Shown here in pieces: positions 17,357 through 42,887 of a DNA stretch of 64,000 nucleotides; positions within the stretch are counted from its first letter, which is position 1; each line of letters opens with the position of its first letter. The notes below the pieces were generated by a model, which made no database searches, was not told the origin of the DNA, and saw nothing but the letters and a program-made list of their open reading frames with translations. Made by a program: the position numbers and the translations under genes. This stretch comes from Lachnoclostridium sp. Marseille-P6806 (lineage in GTDB: Bacteria > Bacillota > Clostridia > Lachnospirales > Lachnospiraceae), in NCBI RefSeq assembly GCF_900625025.1, contig NZ_LR130574.1, forward strand, positions 124,001-188,000, given 5' to 3'.

Positions 17357-17444
17357 GCAGGCAGATTTAACGCTGCCATTCGCCTCCCCGCCGCTGCCGT
17401 GCAGGCGGATTTAACACTGCCGTTCGCCTCCCCGCCGCTGCCGC
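17357..17444. repeat. 44-bp tandem duplication at the 3' end of the trmH-like gene
   Basis: 17357-17400 and 17401-17444 are 44-base direct repeats differing at four positions. The second copy contains the last codons and stop of the rRNA methyltransferase gene; the first lies just behind the stop and fills most of the space before proC. Confidence 0.9.
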
Positions 17445-18217
17445 GCCGCCTCGTACAGCAATATGCCCGCCGCCATCGCTGCATTGAGCGATTCGATCTT
17501 TCCCTGCATGGGGATTCTCAGCCTCTGCCGCGCCGCGGCCGCCGTTTCTTCGCGAAGGCCGCTCCCCTCGTTGCCGATAAGAAACGCCGTTCCTTTCCTA
17601 TAAGAAAGCACATCATAGGACGCCGCGCCGGACATCTGTGCCGCGCAGGTCATAATGCCCTGCCGGTGCAGCTCGCTGAGCGCTGCGGAGAGATCCCCGG
17701 TGTAGAAAAACGGCATACGGAAGACGGAGCTCATCGTCGCCCGCACGGCCTTGGGATTCGTCACGTCCGCGGTCCCGCGGCTCATCAGTATGCCCGTCGC
17801 CCCGGCCGCCTCCGCCGTACGGAACATGGTTCCCAGGTTTCCCGGGTCCTGCACATCCTCGAGAACAAGGAGAAGCGGCTCCTCTCCGTCCGCTCCGAGA
17901 AGCCCTGCCAGACTGTGCTCCGGCATTCTCACGACGCAGAGCACGCCCTGCGGGGTCTGCGTATCCGAGACGCGGAGCAGCGCCTCGTCCCCAATGAGAG
18001 TGTACCCCGTCCGCGCCAGCTTTTCACGGTTTGCGAGATCTCCGGCAAAGCTCTCCGTACAGTATATTTCCGAAAGAAATTCCTCCGGCGTGTCGAGAAA
18101 GAGGCGCCGGCCCTCGATCACAAAGGCGCGCTCCTCTCTGCGCGTCTTTGCCCTCTGCTGCAAGGCCGCAACCCGTTTCAGACGCGGATTCGATGCGGCG
18201 GTGATTTTTTCCTGCAT
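17411..18217 (-). CDS. TrmH/SpoU-family RNA 2'-O-methyltransferase
   Basis: 268 residues. Residues 1-100 are a SpoU substrate-binding domain (SNPRLKRVAAL near the start), and residues 110-268 the SPOUT methyltransferase fold with motif 1 VLEDVQDPGNLGTMFRTAEA, motif 2 LIGNEGSGL and motif 3 RIPMQGKIESLNAAMAAGI. These enzymes use S-adenosylmethionine to methylate ribose 2'-OH in rRNA or tRNA; the target here is most likely 23S rRNA, by family. The start at 18217 is chosen over 18223 because GGGGG then has a six-base spacing; that ribosome binding site abuts the edge of the structured repeat at 18225. Its C-terminal codons lie in a 44-base tandem duplication. Confidence 0.92.
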   Translation of the reverse strand: MQEKITAASNPRLKRVAALQQRAKTRREERAFVIEGRRLFLDTPEEFLSEIYCTESFAGDLANREKLARTGYTLIGDEALLRVSDTQTPQGVLCVVRMPEHSLAGLLGADGEEPLLLVLEDVQDPGNLGTMFRTAEAAGATGILMSRGTADVTNPKAVRATMSSVFRMPFFYTGDLSAALSELHRQGIMTCAAQMSGAASYDVLSYRKGTAFLIGNEGSGLREETAAAARQRLRIPMQGKIESLNAAMAAGILLYEAARQRRGGERQC

Positions 18218-18224
18218 GATCATC

Positions 18225-18402
18225 CCCCATGCCGAAGCACTTTAGTGCGAGGCACGCGCCCCAAAATCTGCGCAGGCGGTTTTGGGGCTGCGATCAGGGC
18301 TATTTGGGCTTCGGCACAAATAGCCGTGTGTAAAAATCAGCGCATCAGCGTGATTTTTCACACTATCCCCCATACCGAAGCACTTTGTGCGAGGCACGCG
18401 CC
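18225..18402. repeat. Structured intergenic repeat, copy 1 (full copy plus a partial head)
   Basis: A full ~145-base element (18225-18370) and a 36-base partial copy of its head (18367-18402) fill the gap between pfkA and the trmH-like gene. It contains several hairpins: GCAC-TTTA-GTGC (18237-18248), CCCCAAAA/TTTTGGGG (around 18258-18287), CTATTTG/CAAATAG (18300-18323) and GTGTG(T)AAAAATCA/TGATTTTTCACAC (18326-18363); GCCGAAGC near one end can also pair with GCTTCGGC at 18308. A second copy lies at 42749-42887. Loop sequences and one base pair differ between copies, but pairing is kept. Confidence 0.85.
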
Positions 18403-18410
18403 GCTTTCCG

Positions 18411-19385
18411 TCACCGGCTCAGCGCCTGACTGATCTCAAACTGGTACTCCGGAATTTCCTTTGTCATCGTGAGAGCCTCCTCCATATCGAAGTCCTGAAA
18501 TTTTCCGTCCCGATAGCCGATGACACGGTTCGTCCCTCCCGCCGCCAGAATATCCGCCGCAAAGGCGCCCATAATGGAGGCGTAGAAACGGTCCTTGCAG
18601 CTTGGCGAACCGCCGCGCTGCATGTAGCCGAGAATGGTCGCCCGCGTCTCAATCCCCGTGGCCGCCTCGATGCGGCGCGCCATGGAGGTCGAATGACCGA
18701 TCCCCTCGGCATTGATGATGATGTGGTGCTTCTTGCCGTGCTTGCGGTTGGAAATGATGTTATCGATGATCCGCTGCTCGTTGTAATCGTATTTTTCCGG
18801 CAGAAGAATGTCCTCCGCGCCGTTCGCCACGCCGCACCACAGCGCGATATAGCCAGCGTTCCGTCCCATGACCTCGATGATGGAGCAGCGCTCATGAGAG
18901 GACGAGGTATCGCGCACCTTATCGATCGCCTGCATCGCCGTATTGACCGCCGTGTCGAAGCCGATCGTATAATCCGTGCAGGCAATGTCAAGATCGATGG
19001 TGCCGGGCAGACCGATCGTATTGATTCCCTGTCTCGCGAGCGCCTGCGCTCCGCGGTAGGAGCCGTCGCCGCCGATGACGACCATCCCGTCGATCCCGTG
19101 CTTCCGGCAGATCTCCGCTCCCTTTTCCTGCCCCTCCGCCGTGCGGAACTCCGAGCAGCGGGCAGTGCCGAGTATCGTCCCGCCCCGCTGGATGATATCC
19201 GAGACGCTGTGCTTGTCCATATCCACGATCTCTTCGTTCAGAAGCCCCATGTAGCCGCGCTGTATGCCCTTGACCTTAAGGCCGTTTCCGATCGCGCGCC
19301 GCACCGCGGCGCGGATGGCCGCGTTCATGCCGGGCGCGTCGCCCCCGCTGGTCAGAATCCCTATCGTCCTTACTTCCTTTGCCAT
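18411..19385 (-). CDS. pfkA: ATP-dependent 6-phosphofructokinase
   Basis: 324 residues, typical bacterial length. It phosphorylates fructose 6-phosphate to fructose 1,6-bisphosphate in glycolysis. Visible motifs: TSGGDAPGMNA (ATP site), GGDGSYRGA (the Gly after GGD marks the ATP-using type), GLPGTID with catalytic Asp, VMGRNAGYIA and LGYMQRGG. One departure: the usual Asn between the two conserved Asp of TIDND is Leu here (TIDLD). The start at 19385 has GGAGG six bases upstream. It follows dnaE by 64 bases, an arrangement conserved in many Firmicutes. The structured repeat occupies the gap to the next gene. Confidence 0.96.
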   Translation of the reverse strand: MAKEVRTIGILTSGGDAPGMNAAIRAAVRRAIGNGLKVKGIQRGYMGLLNEEIVDMDKHSVSDIIQRGGTILGTARCSEFRTAEGQEKGAEICRKHGIDGMVVIGGDGSYRGAQALARQGINTIGLPGTIDLDIACTDYTIGFDTAVNTAMQAIDKVRDTSSSHERCSIIEVMGRNAGYIALWCGVANGAEDILLPEKYDYNEQRIIDNIISNRKHGKKHHIIINAEGIGHSTSMARRIEAATGIETRATILGYMQRGGSPSCKDRFYASIMGAFAADILAAGGTNRVIGYRDGKFQDFDMEEALTMTKEIPEYQFEISQALSR

Positions 19386-41839: not shown

Positions 41840-42718
41840 TCAACGTTTTCGGTTATTGTCGCAGGAATCAGGCGCGGCCGTCCTGTCCCGGACAATGCGC
41901 CGGAGGCTCGCGCGCCACGCCCAGCCAAGAAGACAGTACAGCGCCGCCGGGACGCGGAGCCCTGCCACCTCACGATAGAGTCTCCAGATGCGCTTCACCG
42001 CCGTCCACTTATTCGACGAGAGAGACTGCCCCGCCGGACGGCGGTAGACCACCAGCAGCTCGTCCAGACCACGGGCCGCAACCCCTGTCTTCAGAATATT
42101 CCACCATGTTGCCGTATCCTCGGAGCCGATGCACGGCATATGCAGGAGCTCACGGTCCAGCTTCTCCGTATCCAGAAGCACCGTGGAGGTGAAAATAACC
42201 GTGCGGCTGAGCGCCTCCCGATACGAGAGTGTCGGCGGCACATGCACAGCTCTCCCCGTCGGAACGGCGTTTTCGTCTCCGAACTGATAGGAGCAGAACA
42301 CAAAGGCCGCGTCCTGCTCCTGCATAAAGCGAAGCTCCCGCTCGAGCTTCTCCGGCCGCCACAGATCGTCGGCGTCAAGGAACGCGACATATCTGCCGGA
42401 AGCGGCGTCGACTCCGGTGTTTCTTGCTGCCGCGGCCCCCTCATTACGTTTTTTGCGTATCAGGCGGATCACCCCGCGGGCGTCCCCCCCGCCGGAGCCC
42501 GCCGGCGTGCTTCCCGCATCCTCCGAAAGCGCCTGCCACTCTTTTTTATCACGCTCATGCGCCGTGATCTCCTCGCCGATCAGTGCCGCGCTCCCGTCCG
42601 ACGAGCCATCGTCCACAAGAATCAGCTCCCAGTCGGTAAAGCTCTGCATCCGCACGGCGCGGATTGTCTCCCGGAGATAGCGCTCTGCATTGTATACCGG
42701 AACAATAATACTGATCAT
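41840..42718 (-). CDS. Family 2 glycosyltransferase
   Basis: 292 residues. GT-A fold with the N-terminal ISIIVPVYNAERYLRETI, the acidic ELILVDDGSSDGS, and the metal-binding VAFLDADDLW near residue 115. A C-terminal tail with basic residues could attach to the membrane. It transfers a sugar to a cell-surface glycan or a teichoic-acid-type acceptor; donor and acceptor are unknown. It is a single gene with a leader containing copy 2 of the structured repeat. It faces the Tad operon in the same direction but the Tad promoter lies beyond its stop. Confidence 0.93.
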   Translation of the reverse strand: MISIIVPVYNAERYLRETIRAVRMQSFTDWELILVDDGSSDGSAALIGEEITAHERDKKEWQALSEDAGSTPAGSGGGDARGVIRLIRKKRNEGAAAARNTGVDAASGRYVAFLDADDLWRPEKLERELRFMQEQDAAFVFCSYQFGDENAVPTGRAVHVPPTLSYREALSRTVIFTSTVLLDTEKLDRELLHMPCIGSEDTATWWNILKTGVAARGLDELLVVYRRPAGQSLSSNKWTAVKRIWRLYREVAGLRVPAALYCLLGWAWRASLRRIVRDRTAAPDSCDNNRKR

Positions 42719-42748
42719 AGCTTCTCACTTCTTCTTTGCATTAATCAC

Positions 42749-42887
42749 CATGCCGAAGCGCCCTCAGCGAGGCGCGCGGCGCAAAATCCGCGCAGACGGT
42801 TTTGCGGCTGCGATCAAAGGCTATTTGGGCTTCGGCACAAATAGCGTGTGCCAAATCTCTGCGCCGGCGTGATGTTTCACACTCCCC
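42749..42887. repeat. Structured intergenic repeat, copy 2
   Basis: 139 bases matching copy 1 at 18225-18370 in the same orientation. CTATTTGGGCTTCGGCACAAATAG is identical in both. The GCAAAA/TTTTGC stem (42780-42805) replaces CCAAAA/TTTTGG of copy 1, a compensatory change, and GCGCC/GGCGC (42758-42775) replaces GCAC/GTGC. The GTGTG...CACAC stem is kept with a changed inner part. It lies in the probable leader of the glycosyltransferase message. Confidence 0.85.

Follow-up and report, generated by a model that had tools for sequence, protein, structure and literature searches.

Among the small mobile repeats described in bacteria, the closest in kind to the element analyzed here is YPAL/RU-2 of Yersinia, a 168 bp repeat described as mobile and as flanked by target duplications that vary from 3 to 26 bp (Delihas 2007, PMC2229807). 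The two are alike in being short, in containing internal inverted repeats, in not being A+T-rich and in duplications that, where seen, are variable, although the YPAL/RU-2 targets as presented in that account span or adjoin regions of dyad symmetry, which differs from the placement beside Shine-Dalgarno (SD) sequences and start codons seen here (PMC2229807). The short palindromic copies of REP/BIME sequences with RAYT (TnpA-REP) have been suggested to be non-autonomous mobile elements (PMC2817692, PMC8266576, PMC3733652), and the likeness to our element extends to the presence of more than 100 short hairpin copies per genome. REPs, however, are given as palindromes of 20–40 bp (PMC3733652), whereas the element here is about 140 nt long with four hairpins and a long-range helix, is associated with the SD, and resides in a genome in which no RAYT was found. 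A trait of the REP/RAYT (IS200/IS605-like) systems that is present is the combination of hairpins without terminal inverted repeats and insertion that is strand-specific and adjoins one constant type of word.

MITEs such as Correia, RUP and ERIC are also small and non-autonomous, and Correia elements are described as lying predominantly immediately upstream of genes; most MITEs in these accounts carry terminal inverted repeats and TA-type ends, whereas inverted ends were not found here (PMC10969869, PMC2229807). The words 'ribosome' and 'Shine' are absent from the main text of the 2024 MITE review (PMC10969869). The TAACTGA repeats of Beggiatoaceae, with about 169 sets in one genome, are described as mostly forward and upstream of start codons, the adjoining genes showing no pattern of function; they share position only with the element here, being heptamers in short arrays with little SD character (PMC4679880). 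In a survey of the open-access literature by title and start of abstract, with subscription papers mostly outside it, no SD-targeted element was found. The element behaves like a small non-autonomous repeat, with a distinctive apparent target.

Copies of the element in the window

The window is the whole stretch of DNA analyzed, 64,000 nt in length. A first-pass annotation had recorded a long hairpin element at two places in it, and this observation is confirmed and is larger than described: both are full copies, matched by R1, a covariance model derived from 21 aligned copies (alignment A1, from which 10 of 31 copies were omitted because of inserts or truncation). The features are listed in Table 1. 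In the sense of the downstream gene the element consists of hairpin 1 (GTGTGAAAAATCA..TGATTTTTCACAC), hairpin 2 (GGCTATTTG..CAAATAGCC), hairpin 3 (GCCGCAAAA..TTTTGCGGC) and hairpin 4 (CGTGCC..GGCATG), followed by an SD sequence, over a length of about 140 nt.

Table 1. Coordinates of the two full copies, the remnant and the adjacent genes in the window.
Feature	Position	Strand	Basis
Copy 1, full element	18223..18363	minus (gene sense 18363 -> 18223)	covariance model R1, 152.9 bits
Copy 1 hairpin 1, left end, begins GTGTGAAAAATCA	18326..18363	minus	alignment A1 and pair counts
Copy 1 hairpin 2	18299..18325	minus	alignment, pair counts, cross-species helix test
Copy 1 hairpin 3, bears the C-G/G-C swap	18258..18288	minus	alignment columns 77-108
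Copy 1 hairpin 4 (CGTGCC..GGCATG)	18228..18256	minus	alignment columns 110-138
Copy 1 right end, SD-like GGGGGA	18223..18228	minus	sequence; other copies arranged alike
Remnant, right end (hairpin 4 and GGGGGAT) of an earlier copy	18365..18402	minus	direct repeats
Gene downstream of copy 1, SpoU rRNA methylase family	17411..18223	minus	ORF list; PF00588, 131.3 bits
Copy 2, full element	42744..42882	minus	R1, 119.3 bits
Copy 2 hairpin 1	42846..42882	minus	alignment A1
Copy 2 hairpin 2	42819..42845	minus	alignment A1
Copy 2 hairpin 3	42778..42808	minus	alignment A1
Copy 2 hairpin 4	42749..42776	minus	alignment A1
Copy 2 right end, SD-like GGTGAT then TAATG	42744..42749	minus	sequence
Gene downstream of copy 2, glycosyl transferase family 2	41840..42718	minus	ORF list; PF00535, 118.1 bits

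The gene upstream of copy 1 is a Pfam phosphofructokinase match (the pfkA of the first-pass annotation), and the remnant sits close behind its stop, where it supplies the left-flank SD of copy 1 and gives a weak partial R1 match at 18371–18428 (23.9 bits, E 0.0029). The partial third copy reported behind pfkA is thus present, although it is the right end of an element (hairpin 4 and SD) and not a head. The span to 18402 that had been assigned to copy 1 includes the remnant. There are two possible starts, at 18223 and 18217, after the GGGGGA of copy 1. The GGTGAT of copy 2 is followed by an 8-codon frame (42715–42741, minus strand, by eye) whose stop TGA overlaps the downstream ATG at 42718, and through which copy 2 may drive a coupled leader peptide.

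Structure and covariation

The same four hairpins noted in the two window copies are all present in the 21-copy alignment, in which 93.9% of cells are paired, and they are supported by covariation. Double changes occur at 13 of 50 pairs, with 29 doubly changed cells compared with 9.7 in shuffles, a number reached by 0 of 500; selection for structure, as proposed from two copies, is supported. The C-G/G-C swap in hairpin 3 (columns 80/105) also withstands the larger sample, copy 1 being the sole copy of 21 with CG, while 19 have GC and one is without a standard pair. The change from GCAC/GTGC to GCGCC/GGCGC, by contrast, had been read as a swap within one homologous stem, but copy 2 forms a different register there (by eye); this is the weakest helix, the inner helix of hairpin 4, with 76.2% of cells paired. 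RNA folding of a sister copy (L003) gives −71.4 kcal/mol compared with −43.3 for shuffles (z −7.7). Individual folds of 41 copies from 15 other genomes mostly recover hairpins 1–3, though the letters are largely different, and in them hairpin 4 is often weak or displaced by long-range pairing.

RNAalifold favored pairing of the hairpin-2 loop (TGCCGAAGC, which in copy 1 can pair in this way) with the 3′ arm of hairpin 4 (GCTTCGGCA). With fixed windows and 61 copies from 16 genomes, 21 of them from one genome and 40 from relatives (of 41, a tandem duplicate being omitted), the weighted complementarity has a mean of 22.1 within copies and 15.9 across genomes, and the highest of 200 permutations is 18.2. 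Examples of the paired segments are CCGAAGC/GCTTCGG, CCTGAGC/GCTCAGG, GTCGAAGCGC/GCGCTTCGAC and ACTGAGCGC/GCGCTCAGT, and several divergent copies score low (e.g. in G001, G005 and G006). The higher complementarity within copies across species therefore supports a pseudoknot or an alternative state, and it is this cross-species comparison that supplies the support: within the own genome, where the helix varies too little, covariation of the helix does not go beyond shuffles (127 of 500 reach it). At L203:3090–3227 (minus strand) the hairpin-2 loop TGCTCAGGCA is, by eye, the reverse complement of its siblings' TGCCTGAGCA, as if flipped.

The left end of the element is paired, and reads GTGTG in some species and GAGTG, GATTG or GTTTG in others. 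Group II introns have an invariant 5′ GUGYG and a domain V; a group II intron fragment was rejected on account of the varying, paired left end and the finding of no intron family by Rfam in the window or at six element loci. Terminal inverted repeats are not present beyond chance, judging by the longest exact complement between the first 25 and last 25 nt (means of 4.5 for the 21 A1 copies and 4.1 for 13 G114 copies, against shuffled values of 4.0 and 3.9). No Rfam family exceeds its gathering score in the window, and at six element loci of several species the best overlapping match is AS-pc01, with 31.5 bits against a gathering score of 79. A known riboswitch was rejected on the same lack of a match over gathering, on the mixed downstream genes, and on the absence of an R1 match in 58 relatives' ylxR/lepA loci. 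In G033 a Clostridiales-1 RNA (RF01699, 113 bits) lies near an element (L204:1719–1886, minus strand).

Some copies contain a second structured module of about 85 nt (..AATGCTGTCAGGTnnAGGGACGGCACGAGCCGC..), situated within hairpin 3 in L016, L019, L024 and L029 and within hairpin 1 in L022, L027 and L030 (all in the own genome, G000). All 10 of the pattern matches to this module in 40 stretches and the window adjoin element sequence.

Position and orientation relative to gene starts

The main feature of the element was missed in the first-pass annotation, namely that it lies at the Ribosome Binding Site (RBS), terminating on the right in an SD of its own and bordered on the left by sequence that is SD-like. 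For 51 of 62 own-genome copies, the interval from −4 to +30 nt relative to the right end includes the start codon of an ORF of at least 50 aa (ATG in 47), compared with 13 of 62 in a mirror control at the opposite end that considered ATG only. The 62 copies are those remaining from 80 places of at least 40.4 bits when 18 without flanks are excluded; at least three of the 51 carry an internal insert, and the start match may be fortuitous there, while in six of the 11 copies without a start by this rule the right end is wrongly placed by the model because of an internal insert. A second count, with a home-made gene finder, covers 38 copies, of which 36 share their strand with the gene next downstream, such that the shared orientation originally seen in the two window copies is both correct and general. 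The same gene finder locates a start no more than 20 nt from the right end in 19 of 38 copies, and from the opposite end in one of 38; its choice of starts gives SDs a bonus, whereas the 62-copy ORF count is made without one. A control at random positions (0.35–0.36) is inflated by in-frame starts inside genes, and the position claim therefore rests on the ORF-start and gene-strand counts.

The one-sided orientation could have had a replication-strand cause, 572 of 674 genes being on the majority strand, but this was rejected. The L011 gene and both aspartate carbamoyltransferase genes lie on the minority strand, and so do the copies at them; it is thus the genes that orientation follows. The family as a whole is thus unlike the many randomly oriented copies without covariation that were expected of a simple mobile repeat, because its copies covary and their orientation follows the gene.

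SD-like words are found on both sides of the element. The right end is itself an SD, reading GGTGAT, GGAGGAT or GGGGAT in the own genome and GGAGGAT, GGTGAT, GGGGAT or AAAGG over the sublineages. On the left, an SD-like 4-mer is present in the 13 nt adjoining the element in 76 of 97 copies (30 of 44 own copies of at least 80 bits, and 46 of 53 relatives' copies) and not in the other 21; at random positions the frequencies are 0.29 (own) and 0.22 (relatives). The arrangement is most regular in G114, where each of the 13 extracted copies is bordered by GGAGG on either side and followed by an ATG 4–5 nt after the model's right end. In a set of 20 copies that were read, two (L308 and L309) are left-truncated.

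The 24 downstream genes that were read have mixed functions, with Pfam matches to SpoU methylase, YlxR, SRP54-type GTPase, Clp/AAA and others; further targets are presumably lepA, a MATE gene and the gene for an Ech subunit. Copies L003, L030, L004 and L027 precede genes for the aspartate carbamoyltransferase catalytic and regulatory chains, a phosphoribosyltransferase (which we take to be pyrE) and an arginine repressor, a small cluster of pyrimidine/arginine genes among otherwise mixed targets.

Family size and distribution

There are 116 R1 matches (E <= 0.01) in the 3.126-Mb own genome (96.7% complete), some of which are pieces of one copy. BLAST comparison of copy 1 against this genome yields at least 51 pieces, with 40 of 172 candidates scored, and among the matches scored the copies are 79–98% alike to copy 1. 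The element is matched in 25 of 41 genomes of the genus and, at a stricter threshold, in seven of 246 genomes of the order, the own genome being included in both counts; R1 has limited power on divergent copies and may miss them, and the genomes surveyed are drafts. In G114, 30 matches reach at least 90% identity across 112 or more of 152 query bases (eight are at contig starts and possibly counted twice), which we read as a recent burst of the element. A pattern search identified six stretches of named records (three Lachnospiraceae MAGs, one titled roe-deer rumen, and Lachnospiraceae bacterium NK3A20), and these also end in SD-like words directly before ATG.

Empty sites, junctions and derivative forms

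By R1, the element is present at ylxR and lepA in the own genome and at none of 58 relatives' loci for these genes; the model search included all 60 loci, although by eye two of 29 relatives' ylxR regions and one of 29 lepA regions are unreadable. Closer comparisons are provided by sister species, in which nine G033 sites were checked in G047 and two G003 sites in G013, some of the loci compared running to contig ends. Nine of these 11 sites are without the element in the sister species, and most of the empty sites read SD-spacer-ATG. Six are clean (L203a, L206, L207, L210, L212 and L213), L203b and L205 have additional small-indel differences in the flanks, and the L135 site is empty in G013; the empty forms of L210 and L135 are without a textbook SD. 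L208 is filled in both species, with R1 finding the element at the L208 site only, and at the L222 site, filled in G003, G013 has only a short hairpin resembling hairpin 1. This G013 counterpart (L224) is a single hairpin between SD words, perhaps a minimal form or a scar. Three further sites are filled in both species.

Filled and empty forms can be compared at the junctions. The empty L206 site is CATGGAGGCATACATG and the filled form is CATGGAGGCAA, element, AGGCAAACATG, with AGGCAA common to both flanks; L213 has AGGGAA on both flanks where the sister reads AGGAAA. Both look like short target duplications. Similarity between left and right flanks is in excess for G033/G047 (3 of 500 permutations reach it) and not in G000 (425 of 500), where a general target duplication is therefore unsupported. 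Read by eye, clean pairs (L206, L207, L212 and L213 among them) differ by no more than one base in the spacing of SD and ATG.

Three genes in G114 have a shortened element whose hairpin-2 loop runs straight into the 3′ arm of hairpin 4; either this form is itself mobile or one and the same deletion arose more than once. The left-only and right-only pieces in this genome look, from the junctions read, like a short deletion form plus fragments. No autonomous copy was seen among the matches looked at. Tandem copies do occur, including the remnant and copy 1 in the window. In G010, the leader of a Clp/AAA orthologue (L270; cf. L017) has by eye two tandem, very different element-like units, one of which is matched by R1, and this gene start may have been targeted repeatedly.

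The mobilizing enzyme

The first-pass annotation had likened the element to REPs and MITEs, and had suggested looking for a RAYT-type transposase. The mobility implicit in that comparison is upheld by the many copies, the patchy spread and the empty sites, while a RAYT partner is not, such that the interpretation overall is partly supported. There is no match to the Y1 transposase family PF01797 in the own genome, and although PF01797 is present in 28 of 41 genus genomes it does not track the element: G006, G033, G043, G047 and G052 carry the element without PF01797, and G012, G013, G031, G032, G035, G041, G045, G049 and G051 have Y1 matches yet no element match. Among 24 loci around Y1 genes, only one contains the element, nearly 10 kb away. 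With no link in the own genome, the genus or the 24 neighborhoods, RAYT/Y1 was rejected as the mobilizer, and no mobilizing enzyme was found. Fourteen of these loci (L129–L142), from several species of the same genus, have PF01797 matches in long open frames (roughly 200–360 aa) that are perhaps RAYT-like; the single element nearly 10 kb off is among them.

A proposed mechanism and its alternatives

We consider it likely that the element is a non-autonomous mobile repeat that targets and regenerates RBSs, inserting 3′ of the SD in the sense strand only. A copy would enter a few bases 3′ of the SD of a gene, leaving the order native SD, hairpins 1–4, new SD, start codon. Because the element brings an SD at its right end, the gene would keep an SD at the normal distance despite a folded leader of about 140 nt, and each landing would regenerate both a usable RBS and a new target. 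Head-to-tail stacking would then be possible, since the new SD is again a target, and the tandem copies, including the remnant and copy 1, fit this proposal. The basis for it lies in features of the genomes themselves: copy number, structure, covariation, orientation, the SD-like words on both sides and the element-free sister sites. We infer from these that the SD is the recognized target, rather than selection alone removing other insertions, and that the fold may be needed for movement; translation of the downstream gene is probably preserved.

The strong conserved fold beside the SD, and an alternative helix that overlaps hairpin 4, are also what would be expected of a cis-regulatory RNA (riboswitch- or thermosensor-like) that exposes or hides the SD in a regulon of about a hundred genes, with the helix between hairpin-2 loop and hairpin-4 arm as its alternative state. 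In one copy the MFE structure pairs AUCGC with GGUGAU, and the pyrimidine and arginine genes are among the targets. We nonetheless regard this as improbable: the remaining downstream genes are mixed, relatives' orthologues of ylxR and lepA are without the element, the own copies are closely alike among the matches scored, most tested sites are empty in sister species, G114 has had its burst, and no Rfam family reaches gathering score at these elements. Moreover, predicted accessibility of the SD shows no consistent shift between filled and empty forms in six pairs, and sequestration of the SD is unsupported. The element is best read as a mobile repeat rather than a gene-specific riboswitch; regulation by it is possible but not needed.

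How a mobile repeat would come to lie at gene starts can also be accounted for in other ways. Untargeted insertion followed by selection, with survivors only where a usable RBS remains, draws on the SD carried by the element and on the harm that insertions in coding DNA would do, but we think it unlikely given that copies cluster a few nucleotides from start codons and do not fill intergenic space, and that the left flank is usually SD-like as well. In a REP- or IS200/IS605-like process, a Y1 (HUH) transposase would cut the element as a folded single strand, cleaving at the native SD on the left and at the element's own terminal SD on the right. Such a process would account for an orientation that is constant with respect to the target word, for the lack of terminal inverted repeats, for the hairpins close to the two ends, and for the similar words at the two junctions; the distribution of PF01797 set out above, in particular its absence from the own genome and from five element-carrying relatives, the nine Y1-bearing genomes without an element match, and the one element at 24 Y1 loci, makes this doubtful. 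Movement as a SINE-like retro-element, the structured leader RNA being reverse transcribed and guided to target SDs by the micro-homology of its own SD at the 3′ end, agrees with copies in sense within presumably transcribed leaders, with a covarying structure and a 3′ end that resembles the target, and with junction duplications that, where seen, are short and variable. The wobble counts, however (G.U 23, A.C 25), do not single out the sense RNA strand, and we consider this route distinctly unlikely.

Returning to the RBS-targeted mobile repeat, the element could, more tentatively, represent a new class of mobile element that recognizes the SD itself. Such a unit, pseudoknotted and with several hairpins, would move as RNA or as single-stranded DNA through a not-yet-recognized enzyme. 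Regeneration of the RBS at every landing would allow even essential genes to be colonized, and about a hundred genes would be wired to one shared leader. We offer this as a possibility somewhat short of an even chance.

Implications

About a hundred copies appear to jump in one direction into RBSs, in a host that is a relative of rumen Lachnospiraceae. An insertion so close to a start codon ought ordinarily to disrupt expression. If the proposal is correct, an element that lands on the RBS and supplies a substitute would show by what means housekeeping genes (lepA, ylxR, an SRP-type GTPase and a Clp ATPase) can come to carry a repeat in their leaders, would provide a natural experiment in how much folded 5′ leader translation tolerates, and would point to a mobilizing enzyme with specificity for gene starts. 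Strong covariation in a leader can stem from a mobile element, and does not by itself imply a riboswitch.
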